Part shown: positions 5,267 to 33,926 of the stretch, in pieces
Position numbering within the stretch: position 1 is the stretch's first letter
Layout: every line of letters starts with the position of its first letter
Origin: Desulfocapsaceae bacterium
GTDB lineage: Bacteria; Desulfobacterota; Desulfobulbia; Desulfobulbales; Desulfocapsaceae
Direction of reading: 5' to 3'
Assembly (NCBI GenBank): GCA_030653035.1
Contig: JAUSAB010000074.1
Coordinates: 1 to 33,926 of the forward strand
Length of the DNA: 33,926 nucleotides
Translations under genes and position numbers: made by a program
The notes under the pieces: generated by a model
What the model saw: the letters and a program-made list of their open reading frames with translations, nothing else
Database searches by the model: none
Told to the model about the DNA's origin: nothing

Positions 5267-6412
5267 TTGACCTCTTTTCTCATTATTTATCTATCGGTCT
5301 ATTCCCTTGCCCACTACTACATCTTGCGGAAGATCAGTGCGGCCTTCCCTCCGGGCAGAACAGCCAACACAGGGATAGTTTTGTTTATGGCGGTCATGAT
5401 CATGGCACCAATAATGGTCCGGCTGGCCGAAAAAAACGGCATGGAAGCAGTGGCCAGATTCTTGGCCTATACAAGCTACAGCTGGATGGGGCTGCTTTTC
5501 CTTTTCATCACCCTTGCCGGCACAGTTGATGTGGTCCGTTTTCTAATCCCGGCTGCGGAAAAATTTCACAAGCAAAAGTTTGCCAGGGTAAGGGTGTTGC
5601 CACGGCAACTATTTGCTATACAGGCAATGCTGGCGATTGCCGTTTACGGCTACGGACTATTCGAAGCAGCGGATATCCACCTCGAGCATATCAAAATCGT
5701 CAGTCCCAAAATTACGGAAAAAACCGGCAGAATACGTATTGCCCAGATCTCGGACGTTCATCTGGGTCTCATTATCAGGGAGGGAAGACTTAAAAAAATT
5801 ATTGCCGCAATAAATGAGGCAAATCCCGACATTCTGGTATCCACCGGCGATCTGGTTGACGGCCAGCTCAACCACCTCATCAAAGAATCTGGCCTGCTGG
5901 CTACGGTCAAGCCCCCTCTGGGTAAGATCGCCATTACCGGCAACCATGAATTCTACGCCGGCCTGCCGGACGCCTTGGATTTCACGAAAAAATCAGGGTT
6001 CACCATGCTGCGCGATCAAGGGATGGTGATCGGCGGCATCAATATTGTCGGGGTGGATGACCCGGTAGTCAAGTCATTGGGCACAGGGAGCGCAGAGTCA
6101 GAGCACAATCTTCTTCTGGCCCAACCCAAGGGGAATTTTACACTCCTCCTCAAACACCGGCCCGATATTAATCAAAACAATATAGGCCTTTTTGATCTCC
6201 AGCTTTCCGGCCATACCCACAAGGGTCAGATATTTCCATTCAACCTGCTGACCTGGTTCTTTTACCCCCAACAGGCCGGTCATCTCACCAGGCTGCAAAG
6301 TGGTTCTCTCTACCTGAGCCGCGGCACCGGTACCTGGGGCCCGCCCATCCGCCTTCTGGCGCCGCCTGAGGTGACCATCATCGATCTGGTACCTGAAAAA
6401 AGAATGGAATAA
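5267..6412 (+). CDS. Membrane-anchored calcineurin-like metallophosphoesterase (YkuE/YaeI type)
   Basis: A 381-residue protein with four predicted N-terminal membrane helices (about 2-20, 36-52, 72-93, 112-131) and a C-terminal phosphoesterase domain. All dimetal motifs are visible: D163-x-H165, GD195 (STGDLVDG), GNHE (225-228), H297 in LKHRPD, and GHTH (315-318). The architecture matches the YkuE-like group, proposed to act on UDP-linked lipids or phospholipids. The start is a TTG 9 bases after GGAG (5254-5257). The first in-frame ATG, near 5387, would delete the first helix, so TTG is preferred. It stands alone, followed by a structured intergenic region. Substrate unknown. Confidence 0.9.
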   Translation: MTSFLIIYLSVYSLAHYYILRKISAAFPPGRTANTGIVLFMAVMIMAPIMVRLAEKNGMEAVARFLAYTSYSWMGLLFLFITLAGTVDVVRFLIPAAEKFHKQKFARVRVLPRQLFAIQAMLAIAVYGYGLFEAADIHLEHIKIVSPKITEKTGRIRIAQISDVHLGLIIREGRLKKIIAAINEANPDILVSTGDLVDGQLNHLIKESGLLATVKPPLGKIAITGNHEFYAGLPDALDFTKKSGFTMLRDQGMVIGGINIVGVDDPVVKSLGTGSAESEHNLLLAQPKGNFTLLLKHRPDINQNNIGLFDLQLSGHTHKGQIFPFNLLTWFFYPQQAGHLTRLQSGSLYLSRGTGTWGPPIRLLAPPEVTIIDLVPEKRME

Positions 6413-6795: not shown

Positions 6796-6826
6796 CTGTG
6801 ACAGGATGACACGCGTCCTGTCACAG
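6796..6826 (-). terminator. Hairpin at the 3' end of the HNH gene
   Basis: CTGTGACAGGA (6796-6806) and TCCTGTCACAG (6816-6826) form a perfect 11-bp stem with a 9-base loop. The stem overlaps the stop codon of the leftward HNH gene (6821-6823). No U-run follows leftward, so it may protect the 3' end rather than terminate intrinsically. Confidence 0.45.
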
Positions 6827-7126
6827 CCCCCTTTTCAGCGTCTCCAGGTATTCCTCCCATTCCAGAGGAAGCATGTTTTTTTTTCTGGTATTGCACTCCT
6901 TGCAGGAAGGCACCAGGTTGTCTCTGGTGCTGCGCCCGCCACGGGTCAGAGGGACCAGATGATCCATGGTCAGTTCCTGGAAAGAAACTATCTGCAGGCA
7001 ATAATAACACTTGCCGGAAGCGGTCTTCTGCTGCCACCATCGGGTCTTGCGCATCTCCCTGGCCTTGGCCCGCTCGGTGCGGATTTCAGCCTCGTCCATC
7101 CCATCAAAACCAAAAAAATCCATCAT
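6821..7126 (-). CDS. Small HNH endonuclease-domain protein
   Basis: A 101-residue protein with a charged helical N-terminus (1-35) and a zinc-supported HNH domain: C40-x2-C43, D55-H56 in MDHLVPLTRGG, N70, and C75-x2-C78-N. These are the beta-beta-alpha metal motif and its structural zinc knuckle. Its ATG overlaps the folC stop in an ATGA, so it is translationally coupled to folC and belongs to the helicase-folC-HNH group. Many stand-alone HNH proteins are non-specific or nicking nucleases; nothing shows the target here. The three-gene arrangement hints at housekeeping DNA metabolism rather than a phage or homing element. No intron or intein boundary is visible. Confidence 0.88.
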   Translation of the reverse strand: MMDFFGFDGMDEAEIRTERAKAREMRKTRWWQQKTASGKCYYCLQIVSFQELTMDHLVPLTRGGRSTRDNLVPSCKECNTRKKNMLPLEWEEYLETLKRGL

Positions 7127-8466
7127 CCGCTCACCAGCTCGCCCACCAGGATCTTGCGCACCGCCCCGACCAGATATAAAGAACCGGCCACCACAATCAG
7201 GTCTCCGACCTCGGCCAGGGCCTCAGCCCTGGCCAGGGCCTGATCAACCCGGGCAATACACTCGCAACGTTTCCGCGTCTCGGCATCAAGATTTTCCAGC
7301 AAGTGCTCAGGCGTTGCGGCCCGTTCTCCCTCCGGCTGGGTCAGCAGCAGAATCGCGGCCAACTCGGCAATCAGCGGCAGGGTATTACCCAGATCCTTAT
7401 CCAGCATGGCACCCCAGACCACGATCAGCCGTTTATACTCATATTCCTGGCGCAGAGTGAGCACCAGGCTCTCCACCCCCGCCGGATTGTGCGCCCCATC
7501 AAGGAGATAACAGATGGTGTCTTTATCCGTTGCCTGCACCTGTGCAACCACGTCCCTGCTTTGCCGGTCCAGGCAGATATGCTCCAGACGGCCGGGCCAC
7601 CGCACCGCCGCAAGACCTGCGCGAATCGCCTCTTGCGAAAGCAGAAACCCGTGCGACCGCAGCAAGGGCAGCACTGCCAAGGCCAGGGAGGCGTTTACAA
7701 TCTGATAGCTGCCCCGCATGGAACAGCGCAAAGAATCAAGACGCTCACCGGGCATGACACCACTCCCCGGCAGCCACGACCAGAGGCGATCACTGCCCGG
7801 CTCGGCATGAAAATCCTGACCATACAGATACAGGGGGGCGCTGCGCTCCTGACAGGTCCGCCGCACGACATCCAGCCCTTCATCCGCCGCCACCCCGGCC
7901 ACCACCGGCACAGCGTCCTTGACAATCCCGGCCTTTTCAGCCGCCACTGCCGCCACGGTTGTACCCAGATAGGCCTCATGATCCATGGTCACATTGGTGA
8001 TCACCGAGACCAGCGGCACAACCACGTTCGTGGCATCCAGCCGACCGCCAAGCCCTGTTTCGAGTATCACCAGATCAAGTCCTGATTCGGCAAACCAGAG
8101 CAGGGCCAGCGCCGTGGTAAACTCAAAATAGGTTATTTTTTCCGCACCCAGCACCCCTTTGATCCGGGTGGCCAATTCCGCAAATTTTTCCCTGCTGATA
8201 AATTCGTCGTTGATCCGAAACCGTTCCCGCACCGAGCTGAGATGGGGCGAGGTATAGAGGCCAACCCGGTACCCGGCTTGCGCCAGAAGAGTCAAAAGAG
8301 TGACACTCACCGAGCCCTTGCCGTTGGTGCCGGCCACATGCACATATCGCAACTGCTGCTCGGGATGACCGACCCGGGCCAGAAACATGCGCATGGAGTC
8401 AAGGCCCAGCTTTATTTTATGAAACTGCAGAGATTCAAGGTAGGTATGTGCTTCCTGGTAGTTCAT
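7123..8466 (-). CDS. folC: Dihydrofolate synthase / folylpolyglutamate synthase
   Basis: Adds glutamate to dihydropteroate and to reduced folates with ATP, in the cytoplasm. The 447-residue length is typical. Visible motifs are the P-loop AGTNGKGS (45-52), TSPHLSSVRERF just after it, LETGLGGRLDATN, the TMDHE metal site, and DGAHNPAG in the C-terminal domain. The first ATG (8464-8466) is used; a TTG lies directly before it, and no strong ribosome site is visible. The stop overlaps the HNH start. In the likely ancestral arrangement its ATG lay about 20 bases after the helicase stop, as shown by the duplicated helicase tail at 8485-8523, so the two were probably co-transcribed. PabBC at 19794-21800 serves the same pathway. 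Confidence 0.95.
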   Translation of the reverse strand: MNYQEAHTYLESLQFHKIKLGLDSMRMFLARVGHPEQQLRYVHVAGTNGKGSVSVTLLTLLAQAGYRVGLYTSPHLSSVRERFRINDEFISREKFAELATRIKGVLGAEKITYFEFTTALALLWFAESGLDLVILETGLGGRLDATNVVVPLVSVITNVTMDHEAYLGTTVAAVAAEKAGIVKDAVPVVAGVAADEGLDVVRRTCQERSAPLYLYGQDFHAEPGSDRLWSWLPGSGVMPGERLDSLRCSMRGSYQIVNASLALAVLPLLRSHGFLLSQEAIRAGLAAVRWPGRLEHICLDRQSRDVVAQVQATDKDTICYLLDGAHNPAGVESLVLTLRQEYEYKRLIVVWGAMLDKDLGNTLPLIAELAAILLLTQPEGERAATPEHLLENLDAETRKRCECIARVDQALARAEALAEVGDLIVVAGSLYLVGAVRKILVGELVSG

Positions 8467-8484
8467 CAAGGTTCAATCCACTGA

Positions 8485-8727
8485 TTCAATCAGTTACAAT
8501 CGTCAATTTCGCGTAATCAAGATCTCTGGTTCCCATGCGCCGCATGGGAACCCATTTCGGCCTGCGTTGCAGGCCGTTGTTTTCCAATGTCGTGCAAAGA
8601 GTTATACTGGATGCGACGCATCCAGGCTGCATTCCCATGCGGCGCATGGGAACGAGATGACAATTCAATCATCACTTCAATCAGTCACTTCAATCAGTCA
8701 CAATAGTCAATTTCGCATAATCAAGAT
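8485..8727. repeat. Four-palindrome array flanked by a 39-bp direct duplication
   Basis: A 39-base segment at 8485-8523 recurs at 8689-8727 with three differences, exactly 204 bases apart. On the minus strand each copy encodes LDYAKLTIVTD-stop, the helicase C-terminus. Between them are four near-perfect palindromes: 8528-8552 (12-bp arms), 8558-8576 (8-bp arms), 8607-8625 (9-bp arms) and 8632-8652 (10-bp arms). The first and last share the TTCCCATGCG arm. A 13-base tandem repeat (CACTTCAATCAGT twice) sits at 8673-8698. The array resembles dispersed REP/tandem-palindrome families. It separates the helicase gene from folC. Confidence 0.8.
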
Positions 8728-10876
8728 GCAGGGTTTTCAGGCCATGACGCTCAAAGAGGACGTCAACCGTGCGCACGCTGCCGAGCGTCACCACCGTTCC
8801 GGTGCCAAAAAAAGGATGACTGACTTGGGTACCTTTCGCCAGATCGGTCATCGAGACCTTGGTTCTGCTTTTTCGCAATGGGGGAACACCTGCGCCTCTG
8901 GCAAACACCCCTGCCGGAGAAGACGGCCGCTTCTCTTCCTCAATCCGCTCAAAAAGCCCGCCTTTGAGCTCAGAGAGAAAAGGCGACAGCGAAACCCGCC
9001 GAAACTGCCGGTCCGGGGTCATCAACTCTTTGGGATAACTCAGATAGAGATATTTTTTGGCCCGGGTGGCAGCCACATAGAGCAGCCGCCTTTCCTCTTC
9101 CCATTGCTCACCCATCTCAGCCTTGGCATGGGGAAATCTCCCCTCCGCCAGACCAATGACAAAGACCGCCTCCCACTCCAGCCCCTTGGCGGAATGGATC
9201 GTCGAAAGAATCATCCGATTCGCGTCCTCCTCCCGATGCGAGGTGGCAGAGTCGGGCGGGTCAAGGGTGGTATCATCGACAAAGGCCTGCAGGTCCGCAT
9301 ATTCACTGATAATGCCCTGCAACTGTTCCAGATCCTTCTGCCGTTTGGGATAATCATCATGATACAATCGCTCAAAGATTGGCTGATAGTAGATCATGAT
9401 CAATTCGTACATGATAGCAGGCGACTTTTCCTGGAGCAGATCACCAAAAAGCTTGGCCAGACGCCGCATCCCCTCTTCCCAGGTCTTGCCCGCCGGATAG
9501 TCGACCAAGAGCTGAAAGGGCTCCGTCGACTGGCCAATCTGGGCGGCAATCTTCTGGGCGGTTTTGGGTCCCACCTTATCCAGATGCAACAACACCCGGT
9601 TCCAGGAAAGATTATCCCTGGGGTTGGCGAGGAGGCGCAAAAAAGAAAGGACATCCTTCATGTGCGCCGCCTCGGTCAGCTTCAGACCGCCCCGCTTCTC
9701 AAAATCCACCCCGCCGCTGGCCAGCTCAAGCTCCAATTTATAGGAATGAAAACCGGAGCGGAACAGCACCGCGATATCCTGCAAACGGACACCGGAGACA
9801 ACCAGCTCACTGATCTTGCCGGCCACGAATTTGGCCTCCTGCCGCTCATCATCAGCGGCAAAGAGCAGGGGCTTGCGCGTCCCTTCCAGACGGGTAAAGA
9901 GGGTCTTGCTGTATTTTTCCGTGGCATGACAGATAATATCATTGGTCAGCGCCAGGATCGGCTCGGTGGAACGATAATTTTCTTCCAGCTTGATGATGTG
10001 GGTATCAGGAAACAACTTGGGGAAGCGCATGATATTATAAAAATCAGCGCCGCGAAAGGAGTAGATCGACTGGGAATCATCACCCACCACCATCACATTA
10101 TCATGGCCGGACGCCACGAGCCGAACGATCTCCGCCTGCACCAGATTGGTATCCTGATACTCGTCCACCATGATATGGGTAAAACGCGAGGCAATGGCCT
10201 GCCGTGCCTCCGGGACCTCGGCCAGCAGCCGTTTCCAGTTGACCAGCAGGTCATCATAATCCATCAGACCATGGGTAAACTTGAATTCCTGATAGTGCTT
10301 CTGCAGCCTGAGCAGATCATCTGTATGCTCACTAAGATGGACATAGTGGGCAAAGACCAGATCCTCCAGGGCTATCGACTTATTGACCGCCCCGCTGATC
10401 ATATTAATAATGACCCGCTTGGAAGGAAACTGCAGGTCACGTCCGGTAAGGCCAAGAGAAGACTTCAACAGATTGATGATTCCTTCGGCATCGGAGCGAT
10501 CAATGATGGTAAAAGAAGAGCCGAAGCCAAGGGCCGCGCCATGACGCCGGAGCAGCAGATTGGCGGTACCATGAAAGGTGCCGCCGACTACTCGACTGCA
10601 GGAATCATTCAGGAGCCTGCCCGCCCGCCACAGCATCTCCTGGGCCGATTTCCGGGTAAAAGTCAGCAGAAGGATATTTTCGGGGGCCACCCCTTTTTCA
10701 AGGAGATGGGCGACCCTGTAGACAAGGGTCCTGGTCTTGCCGCTGCCGGCCCCGGCTATGACCAGAACCGGCCCTTCAGTCCTAATCACCGCCTCATGTT
10801 GGGCAGGATTCAGCTCATCCAGGTCTATGACCGGAAGGACATGATTGATTTTATTGGTAGAGATATCAGATTGCAT
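8690..10876 (-). CDS. pcrA: UvrD/PcrA-type superfamily 1 DNA helicase
   Basis: A 3'-5' helicase of repair and replication-fork rescue. With the chosen ATG (10874-10876) it has 728 residues and starts shortly before the Q motif LNPAQHEAV. Walker A is AGAGSGKT (41-48), followed by LTFTRKSAQEM (Ia), VDEYQDTN (II), GDDSQSIYSFRGAD (III), STIHSAKGLEWE (V) and LYVAATRAK (VI). The C-terminus has the Tudor-like RNA-polymerase-binding fold of PcrA/UvrD (VSHPFFGTGTV to LDYAKLTIV). A 38-codon upstream extension is possible, but it is Cys/Arg-rich and crosses a consensus promoter for the divergent gene, so I reject it. No strong ribosome site is seen. PcrA versus UvrD cannot be settled here. Confidence 0.92.
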   Translation of the reverse strand: MQSDISTNKINHVLPVIDLDELNPAQHEAVIRTEGPVLVIAGAGSGKTRTLVYRVAHLLEKGVAPENILLLTFTRKSAQEMLWRAGRLLNDSCSRVVGGTFHGTANLLLRRHGAALGFGSSFTIIDRSDAEGIINLLKSSLGLTGRDLQFPSKRVIINMISGAVNKSIALEDLVFAHYVHLSEHTDDLLRLQKHYQEFKFTHGLMDYDDLLVNWKRLLAEVPEARQAIASRFTHIMVDEYQDTNLVQAEIVRLVASGHDNVMVVGDDSQSIYSFRGADFYNIMRFPKLFPDTHIIKLEENYRSTEPILALTNDIICHATEKYSKTLFTRLEGTRKPLLFAADDERQEAKFVAGKISELVVSGVRLQDIAVLFRSGFHSYKLELELASGGVDFEKRGGLKLTEAAHMKDVLSFLRLLANPRDNLSWNRVLLHLDKVGPKTAQKIAAQIGQSTEPFQLLVDYPAGKTWEEGMRRLAKLFGDLLQEKSPAIMYELIMIYYQPIFERLYHDDYPKRQKDLEQLQGIISEYADLQAFVDDTTLDPPDSATSHREEDANRMILSTIHSAKGLEWEAVFVIGLAEGRFPHAKAEMGEQWEEERRLLYVAATRAKKYLYLSYPKELMTPDRQFRRVSLSPFLSELKGGLFERIEEEKRPSSPAGVFARGAGVPPLRKSRTKVSMTDLAKGTQVSHPFFGTGTVVTLGSVRTVDVLFERHGLKTLHLDYAKLTIVTD

Positions 10877-10919
10877 GGGGCCAGACTTTACCACAGTGGC
10901 GCATCCGCCGCAACGTCGG

Positions 10920-10947
10920 TTGACAAAGACGCAACGCCGCTTATAAT
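10920..10947 (+). promoter_or_regulatory. Consensus sigma-70 type promoter
   Basis: TTGACA (10920-10925), a 16-base spacer and TATAAT (10942-10947) match both consensus hexamers exactly. The expected start is near 10954, giving a leader of about 80 bases before the ATG at 11035. It lies just upstream of the divergent helicase gene. Confidence 0.8.
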
Positions 10948-11034
10948 AAAGCCCTCTCAGATAACTTGCGCGACAGACATCATCCTGCATGTTTTGCGCA
11001 ACAATCCGTTAACTCTCAACAACAAGAGAACATC

Positions 11035-32598: not shown

Positions 32599-33926
32599 GG
32601 TTCATCCGACTAAAGCGTACTTTGTTTCATGAAGGGCCATTATTTTCAGCTTAAAGAACTCCATGTCTCTGTAACCATAGGCTTTCCTCTGCATAGTCTT
32701 GATTTTATTATTGGTGCCTTCGAGAGGGCCTGTCGATAAGCAATCAAAATCAAAATAGGCCAATATGCCATCAACGTGTTCTTCCAAGGTCGTGGCAAAC
32801 TTTTTCAACATCGCTATGCCAGAACTTCGAGCCATGGCGATCCAGCTACGCAAATGCCATTCGGCAGCTTTCTTATCACCAGTCCAACACCAGAGTTGTC
32901 GCAAATCCTCTTTCATGTAGTACACAGTGGCCAGAGGTTTATTGATTTCCAAGGCTTGCTTCAGTCGCTTGGCTTGTTCTTCCTTGTCTTCAAGTTTCTC
33001 CTTCGCGGTCAGTAAAAGCCAACGGGTTCCCTTGATGACTCTTCTTTGCAGTATATCTGTTGTATTATTAAACAGTTGCCGCCTGAAGTCGGATACTTTT
33101 TCGTTAAACAATTTTATCACATGAAAATGATCGAAAACGATTACCGCCTTCTTTAAATTTTCACGAACTGCTTTCAAATATGCCGGTGACATGTCTATGG
33201 CAACAGCTTCAATCTTCACCTTTCGATATCGCCGTAATCTTTGCCAAAATGGCTCCAGAGCATCTCCTCCTTTGCCGTCGCCGACAAAAACCACCGCTCC
33301 ACTTAGGATGTCGAGGACTACCGTAAGATAGCGCTTCTTGCCGATATAGATCTCATCAATTGCTATCCGCTTCAATTTCTTGAGATCCGGTTGTTCATAT
33401 TTCTTTTGCAAATACTTCTTCTGGATGCCTTTTATGATATCCCAGCTCAACCCCAAGTGCCTGGAGATATCAACAATAGCCATATGTTTGACCAGATCGA
33501 GAACATATCGCCCAAGGGCTCTGGTGTAGGTCAAACGAGGATCAGCAAATCCAATATCTGATTGGCGAATTGTTTTGCAATCTTTACATTCCACACGGGC
33601 AATCTCAGTTTTTATATAGGTCGCTTTCTTGCCGATGGGTAGAGAATGAAACCATCGGAGATGTGAACCATGCTTTATGATCCTTTTGCTTTTACAAACC
33701 GGGCATTGAAGACTGAATTTCTTTCTGGATACGGTGAAAATCACGTCTCCTTCTCTGTACTCTGTGCGAATATAGCGATACCCAACAATACCAAAACCAT
33801 GATAGAGTAAACTCGTGGACATGTAGAACCCTCCTTATCTTTTGCTTGGTCGCATTGATAAGGACTACATGTCCATTCTTTTTACCACTCATTTTTCGGT
33901 ACAAGTACGCTTAATCCGGAAGAACC
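32599..33926 (-). mobile_element. Complete ISL3-family insertion sequence
   Basis: Terminal inverted repeats of 22 bp at 32599-32620 and 33905-33926 match at 18 of 22 positions; both begin GGTTC on their outer edge and end AAGCGTAC. The element is 1,328 bp and encodes one transposase whose stop lies inside the left repeat. The 8 bases before the left end are ATTTTTTC (32591-32598); ISL3 elements typically make an 8-bp target duplication, whose partner would lie just beyond the window. Ends and ORF are intact, so it looks recent and possibly active. Confidence 0.85.
32602..33822 (-). CDS. ISL3-family transposase
   Basis: A 406-residue transposase. An N-terminal zinc ribbon has C40-x2-C43 and C79-x2-C82 for DNA binding, followed by a helix-turn-helix-like region (about 115-135). 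The DDE core shows D156 (AIDEIYIGK), D210 (AVAIDMSPAY) followed by VFDHFHV, and the C-terminal GPLEGTNNKIKTMQRKAYG with the catalytic Glu. The length is typical and the frame is intact. The ATG at 33822 lies 7 bases after AAGGAGG. It is the only gene of the element, and its stop codon sits in the left inverted repeat. Confidence 0.95.
   Translation of the reverse strand: MSTSLLYHGFGIVGYRYIRTEYREGDVIFTVSRKKFSLQCPVCKSKRIIKHGSHLRWFHSLPIGKKATYIKTEIARVECKDCKTIRQSDIGFADPRLTYTRALGRYVLDLVKHMAIVDISRHLGLSWDIIKGIQKKYLQKKYEQPDLKKLKRIAIDEIYIGKKRYLTVVLDILSGAVVFVGDGKGGDALEPFWQRLRRYRKVKIEAVAIDMSPAYLKAVRENLKKAVIVFDHFHVIKLFNEKVSDFRRQLFNNTTDILQRRVIKGTRWLLLTAKEKLEDKEEQAKRLKQALEINKPLATVYYMKEDLRQLWCWTGDKKAAEWHLRSWIAMARSSGIAMLKKFATTLEEHVDGILAYFDFDCLSTGPLEGTNNKIKTMQRKAYGYRDMEFFKLKIMALHETKYALVG

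Follow-up and report, generated by a model that had tools for sequence, protein, structure and literature searches.

MITEs are short, non-coding sequences with terminal inverted arms, which occur in several copies and have a short target duplication of constant length. Some integrative elements restore the 3' end of the gene they enter, whereupon the gene end is found on both sides of the insert. According to two studies (PMC2817692, PMC3733652), REP and BIME sequences are short palindromes preserved through compensatory changes, which join into composite units and have a patchy distribution across species; the former gives a REP copy number of usually >100. According to a part of PMC5576700, precise excision of inverted repeats enclosed by direct repeats (20-30 bp) occurs in about 1e-5 of Salmonella cells.

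The window, i.e. the whole stretch of 33,926 nucleotides analysed here (an uncultured Desulfocapsaceae bacterium, contig JAUSAB010000074.1), contains a four-hairpin element of 134 nt between a helicase gene and a folC-like gene. Like MITEs, this element is short and non-coding, has terminal inverted arms and is present in several copies. Like 3'-end-restoring integrative elements, it has a gene end on both sides, but the 134-nt insert is without an integrase and the supplied end brings a spacer which resembles that in the chromosomes of relatives. As in REP/BIME, its palindromes show compensatory changes, are combined in composite units and are patchy among species. Unlike REP/BIME, the own genome has only 26 palindromes when up to 3 mismatches are allowed, and neither a tag at the ends of the aligned copies nor a Y1_Tnp gene beside the palindromes was found. 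As in the DIRex/MIRAGE-type cassettes outlined in a part of PMC5576700, inverted arms are enclosed by direct repeats of over 25 nt and the insert is predicted to excise leaving one repeat. It differs from the cassettes described there (PMC5576700) in being natural, in having arms of only 26 nt compared with the long published arms, and in having repeats which are 36/39 identical.

The duplicated helicase end

The junction consists of the following parts (window coordinates). Relatives of the same genus are designated G001 to G016; L050, L051 and L052 are the junction records of G004, G015 and G008, respectively.

8690..10990, minus strand: UvrD/PcrA-type helicase gene (ORF; Pfam PF00580, 8e-70, and PF13361, 2.4e-55)
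8689..8727, minus strand: helicase-side copy of the 39-nt helicase end, which is the end of the intact gene
8659..8689, minus strand: helicase-side spacer, type I, resembling the whole helicase-folC spacer of G008/G015
8525..8658, no strand: four-hairpin dispersed element, 134 nt, with 26-nt terminal arms (96% complementary)
8485..8523, minus strand: folC-side second copy of the helicase end, outside the gene and adjoining the element
8467..8485, minus strand: folC-side spacer, type II, nearly identical to the spacer of G004 (L050)
7123..8469, minus strand: folC-like Mur ligase gene (Pfam domains as expected)
6821..7126, minus strand: HNH ORF, overlapping the folC stop (PF14279, PF01844)

A sequence-only reading of this DNA had claimed two 39-mers, 204 nt apart from start to start (8485-8523 and 8689-8727), which both encode the last 11 helicase codons and the stop. 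This was confirmed: each copy reads LDYAKLTIVTD-stop on the minus strand, and the copies are identical at 36/39 positions. The three differences (TAT/TAC, ACT/ACG, GTG/GTA) are all synonymous third-position changes, affecting 3/11 sense codons; helicase codons for the same residue differ by 19, 19 and 23% from L050, L052 and L051, respectively. Judged from the codons, synonymous-only differences are as expected if both copies were gene ends until recently. The flank direct-repeat score of the window is 31.5 and was reached by 0/200 shuffles; the highest score among non-coding control positions (n=378) was 12.0. The duplication of the helicase end is far above chance.

The length of 39 nt holds for a real core, not for the whole duplicated stretch. 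Two BLAST pieces of the window overlap on the relative by 72 nt in G008 (6299-6370), 72 nt in G015 (7360-7431), 52 nt in G004 and 39 nt in G014; thus, the 39 nt are the best-kept core of a longer duplication. Against G008/G015 the stretch comes to about 72 nt because the helicase-side copy also carries the whole spacer. This type I spacer is made of 13-nt units resembling the helicase's own end, namely two further units like that end (GTGACTGATTGAA) plus TTGT. Across 8659-8702, GTGACTGATTGAA forms the last 13 nt of the helicase and is followed by the two like units, and a diverged form of this arrangement is present in L051 and L052. The type II spacer stops before the ATG at 8466, which is the one used by the relatives.

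Structure of the hairpin element

8632..8652, no strand: outer hairpin A, helix 1 of the aligned copies
8607..8625, no strand: inner hairpin B, CTGGATGCGACGCATCCAG on the plus strand, helix 2
8558..8576, no strand: inner hairpin C, CGGCCTGCGTTGCAGGCCG on the plus strand, helix 3
8528..8552, no strand: outer hairpin D, GGTTCCCATGCGCCGCATGGGAACC on the plus strand, helix 4

The outer hairpins A and D are built on GTTCCCATGC..GCATGGGAAC and are complementary to each other as well (26 nt, 96%), which gives the element terminal inverted repeats in the manner of MITEs. The minus-strand RNA of 8470-8690 has a predicted fold of -96.6 kcal/mol (z = -7.62), in which B and C branch off as arms from a single large stem. 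For the helix alignment, 10 of the 11 longest copies among those examined were taken (4 species), whereas the partial copy L144 was left out. All four helices are kept, with 92.2% of cells paired compared with 23.5-44.0% in slid versions of the alignment and 90.3% in shuffles. Two-sided (compensatory) changes of the REP/BIME kind were found in 5/36 pairs across the 10 copies, a modest covariation, and one slid version (+2) also gives five two-sided pairs. An Rfam search of 8300-8900 gave no match up to E = 1.

Distribution of the element

The longest other copies in the own genome are located at C85:52111 (interrupted), C13:38814 and C13:40367. Within the genus, counting the own genome, a match to the 134-nt query at E ≤ 1e-6 was obtained in 12/17 genomes, and full-length matches are present in G003, G010 and G012. 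G004, which has the most similar helicase, gives no match to this query, and the palindrome is likewise absent from it when up to 1 mismatch is allowed. Across the family, the palindrome is found at up to 1 mismatch in 19/93 genomes. Neither a GTAG nor a CGTC tag was found beside the palindrome in any of the 10 aligned copies, the C85 copy having been checked at its right end alone. A constant flanking repeat was not seen at the element copies in the own-genome and congener scans, which would miss duplications of 2-9 nt. The element is an untagged, REP/MITE-like family, non-coding and multi-copy. Thereby, a four-hairpin repeat family is recorded in a genus related to Desulfobulbaceae, and REP tags and a transposase partner were not found beside it.

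Concerning a RAYT link, all 7 Y1_Tnp loci of the own genome are without the palindrome in flanks of up to 1.5 kb (best match 6-8 mismatches). RAYT involvement was rejected on this ground. L105:1381-2442 encodes a protein that resembles Y1 transposases and carries a DnaA C-terminal helix-turn-helix domain, and an ISL3-family transposase gene is located at 32602-33822 of the window, near the contig end. Five hairpin-element clusters are found within about 4 kb at C13:38818-42834 of the own genome.

In open-licence PMC articles, the palindrome 21-mer was in none of the matches listed, which concerns those matches and not print in general. A comparable palindromic insertion was likewise in none of the matches listed there, judged by title and start of the abstract, and for homology-facilitated illegitimate recombination only plant work surfaced in the same collection.

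The junction in related genomes

Helicase and folC are on one contig in 12 of the 16 congeners (L021-L032); the other four (G001, G007, G010, G012) yielded no locus of this kind. All 12 have one helicase end and no element, therefore the array in the window is a real insertion. Insertion into the helicase-folC junction, as proposed from the sequence, is borne out by these empty junctions, and the helicase has indeed kept a complete end despite the insert. A second helicase end, as expected if relatives shared the spacing of the window minus the array, was found in 0/12 readable junctions. The observation is real and somewhat unusual.

The spacers of the congeners range from about 5 to 318 nt, with 19 nt in G004 (type II) and 32 nt in both G008 and G015 (type I). 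The junctions of G011 and G016 hold about 124 nt of other sequence. In L024, L025, L027, L030, L031 and L032 the spacers contain about 107-318 nt of other sequence, in some cases with inverted repeats (by eye).

Two spacer types and the origin of the insert

It had been claimed that the native upstream sequence of folC was kept. The folC-side junction is that of G004, which would fit this claim; the helicase-side tail and spacer match G008/G015, and either side may be the native one. The helicase-side 71 nt score 55 and 51 with L052/L051 vs 38 with L050, and the folC-side copy scores 68 with L050 vs 51.5 and 44 with L052/L051. For the spacers alone, the helicase-side values are 23.0/19.0 with L052/L051 vs 0.5 with L050, and the folC-side values 15.0 with L050 vs 0.5/-1.0 with L052/L051; the scores of the matching spacer pairs were reached by 0/2000 shuffles. 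In these alignments the two copies look like different alleles, the helicase-side copy being of the G008/G015 type and the folC-side copy of the G004 type. With two different alleles, slippage or a target duplication from one parent sequence would be insufficient by itself. A recent one-step duplication would give identical copies, hence, spacer types from different relatives speak against it.

The identity profile changes nearby. Between 6.4 and 8.0 kb, the identity of the window to G008/G015 amounts to 91.8-97.5%, compared with 85.0-87.2% for G004 (the latter from 6.8 kb on), whereas in the eight 400-base bins of 8.4-11.6 kb G004 is highest in 5 and G008 or G015 in 3. This indicates an ancestry shift within the 5' half of folC or close to it, at a distance of a few hundred bases from the insert.

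The insertion, the dispersed element, the two spacer types and the nearby ancestry shift are the observations from which the best explanation starts. It reads that homeologous recombination or template switching joined two diverged junction versions around the hairpin element, and we hold it to be slightly short of an even chance. A multi-copy hairpin element would thus sit in the helicase-folC junction at a join, with a helicase end and a type I spacer on one side and a helicase end, a type II spacer and folC on the other. The two versions would have been joined by homeologous recombination or by template switching stimulated by the hairpins, rather than by a transposase making a target duplication. 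Of the routes proposed earlier (slippage, recombination or a REP-associated transposase), recombination has a place in this explanation; slippage alone would not suffice and a RAYT link was not found. The locus would be a case of an insert joining two alleles of one gene end, with both neighbouring genes left complete.

Several points run counter to this joining of two versions. The compared stretches are short. Outside its end, the helicase shows no donor tract; over its last 250 codons L050 is the closest, if anything, and G008 or G015 is highest in 3/8 bins above 8.4 kb. Slippage in 13-nt steps at the helicase's own end could have created the type-I-like units afresh, and GAT in both window copies vs GAC in L050-L052 hints at a duplication inside the lineage of the window.

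An older event would dispense with a second parent. In this case, the element would have entered with a single target duplication of about 70 nt while the lineages of the window and G004 were still one. Drift would then have brought the folC-side copy to type II, and recombination between the repeats would have removed the element from G004, sparing the folC-side spacer. Vertical descent alone suffices for this course, and it agrees with the spacer type of G004 and a copy divergence of about species level. The layout is likewise that of a target duplication, as both copies extend inwards up to the element or to a few bases from it. However, the non-coding folC-side copy has 0 non-synonymous differences from L050 in 38 nt, where about 3 are expected (a weak estimate), and types I and II differ at about 10/25 positions with one unit removed (hand count), far more than the tails do. 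We consider this older insertion rather unlikely.

A chimeric assembly of two metagenome strains at the repeated hairpin would also bring two alleles together. The genome is in 118 contigs and the 28-nt outer hairpin occurs exactly elsewhere. Nevertheless, a false join still needs a template with the hairpin adjoining a helicase end, and all other junction-query matches fall within query positions 98-242 of 321, none of them reaching the helicase tail; such a chimera is very improbable.

Flanking repeats at other copies

The sequence-only reading would fall if array copies elsewhere lacked a flanking duplication, and the outcome differs between own genome and congeners. In the own-genome flank scan 24 clusters were scored, window included, and 0/23 other clusters have a comparable duplication (score ≥ 13). 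The best of these, C85:48195 (14/15 nt), scores 12.5, just above the control maximum and compared with 31.5 for the window. For C85:48195, C85:8135, C55:30100 and C85:52115 at most 12/200 shuffles reach the score, and their repeats are all short. In the congener flank scan 32 clusters were scored, and three were dropped at locus edges (L127, L128, L145). Long flanking direct repeats were found in 3/32 clusters, namely L138 (19 nt), L124 (28 nt) and L125 (43 nt); since the congener loci are the best-scoring element matches only, this is no genome-wide rate. With the window left out, a score ≥ 13 was reached by 3/55 clusters vs 0/378 control positions (p = 0.0020).

At L124:1480-1710 (G010), both repeat copies read KKKFPP-stop, which is the end of the ORF at 1684-2214, on either side of the element. 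The L138 locus (1470-1573) has a two-hairpin element which adjoins a 19-nt direct repeat on either side, with a 13-nt tandem repeat next to one of them. At L125:1345-1722, other palindromic repeats surround a four-hairpin element, one of them GTAG-like (GGTAGGTCGGGTTTCAACCCGAC; by eye).

The excess over controls favours the view that long flanking duplications of variable length result from the spread of the element itself, e.g. by staggered or template-switch insertion, the window being one case. The L124 copies are a gene-end duplication of the same kind as in the window, and this duplication beside an element in G010 is easier to reconcile with a general mechanism than with a single event. 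Against this view stand the other own-genome clusters, none of which reaches a score of 13, and peculiarities of each congener locus. At L124 the second copy begins 46 nt away, the gene end found at this site in congeners is a different one, and the repeat contains a CCCCCCTGATTCAGGGGGG-type stretch which may be another dispersed repeat (by eye). The L125 pair encloses another hairpin repeat (by eye), and at L138 no congener aligned over the repeats. The orthologous sites of L124, L125 and L138 gave no clean single-copy target, and the repeats are not shown to be target duplications. In the own genome, the gene downstream of L002 (C85) was matched in 5/6 relatives, with no matching upstream side across the element by BLAST (the spacer was read in L198 alone), and for L003 1/6 relatives was matched, partially. 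We regard duplications made by the element's spread as improbable.

A broader form of this view is that the elements spread by replication-linked template-switching insertion which duplicates long, variable target stretches, at times between two homeologous templates, so that a gene 3' end is carried across and the insertion is harmless and later excisable. This would be a somewhat longer shot; if true, it would offer a testable explanation of how hairpin repeats can enter tight gene pairs without harm. Returning to recombination between two junction versions, the match of the copies to two different relatives suggests a local recombination accident more strongly than the element's normal insertion mode, and recombination specific to this locus is the most likely source of the flanking duplication.

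Stability and possible effect of the insert

With the coding ends of both genes complete, the insert is likely to be nearly neutral; if it has an effect, this would come from RNA hairpins within the transcript. A terminator-like site on the transcribed (minus) strand was not found inside the insert; of the terminator-like matches in 8200-9000 (shuffle mean 1.0), one covers 8558-8576 of the plus strand and one is on the minus strand outside the insert.

Since precise excision is known for direct repeats around inverted repeats from a part of PMC5576700, the window insert should be unstable. Its inverted arms inside flanking direct repeats would make it prone to precise deletion, which would leave one helicase end and the folC-side spacer, the arrangement of G004. 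The G004 junction is compatible with a precise excision leaving one direct repeat.
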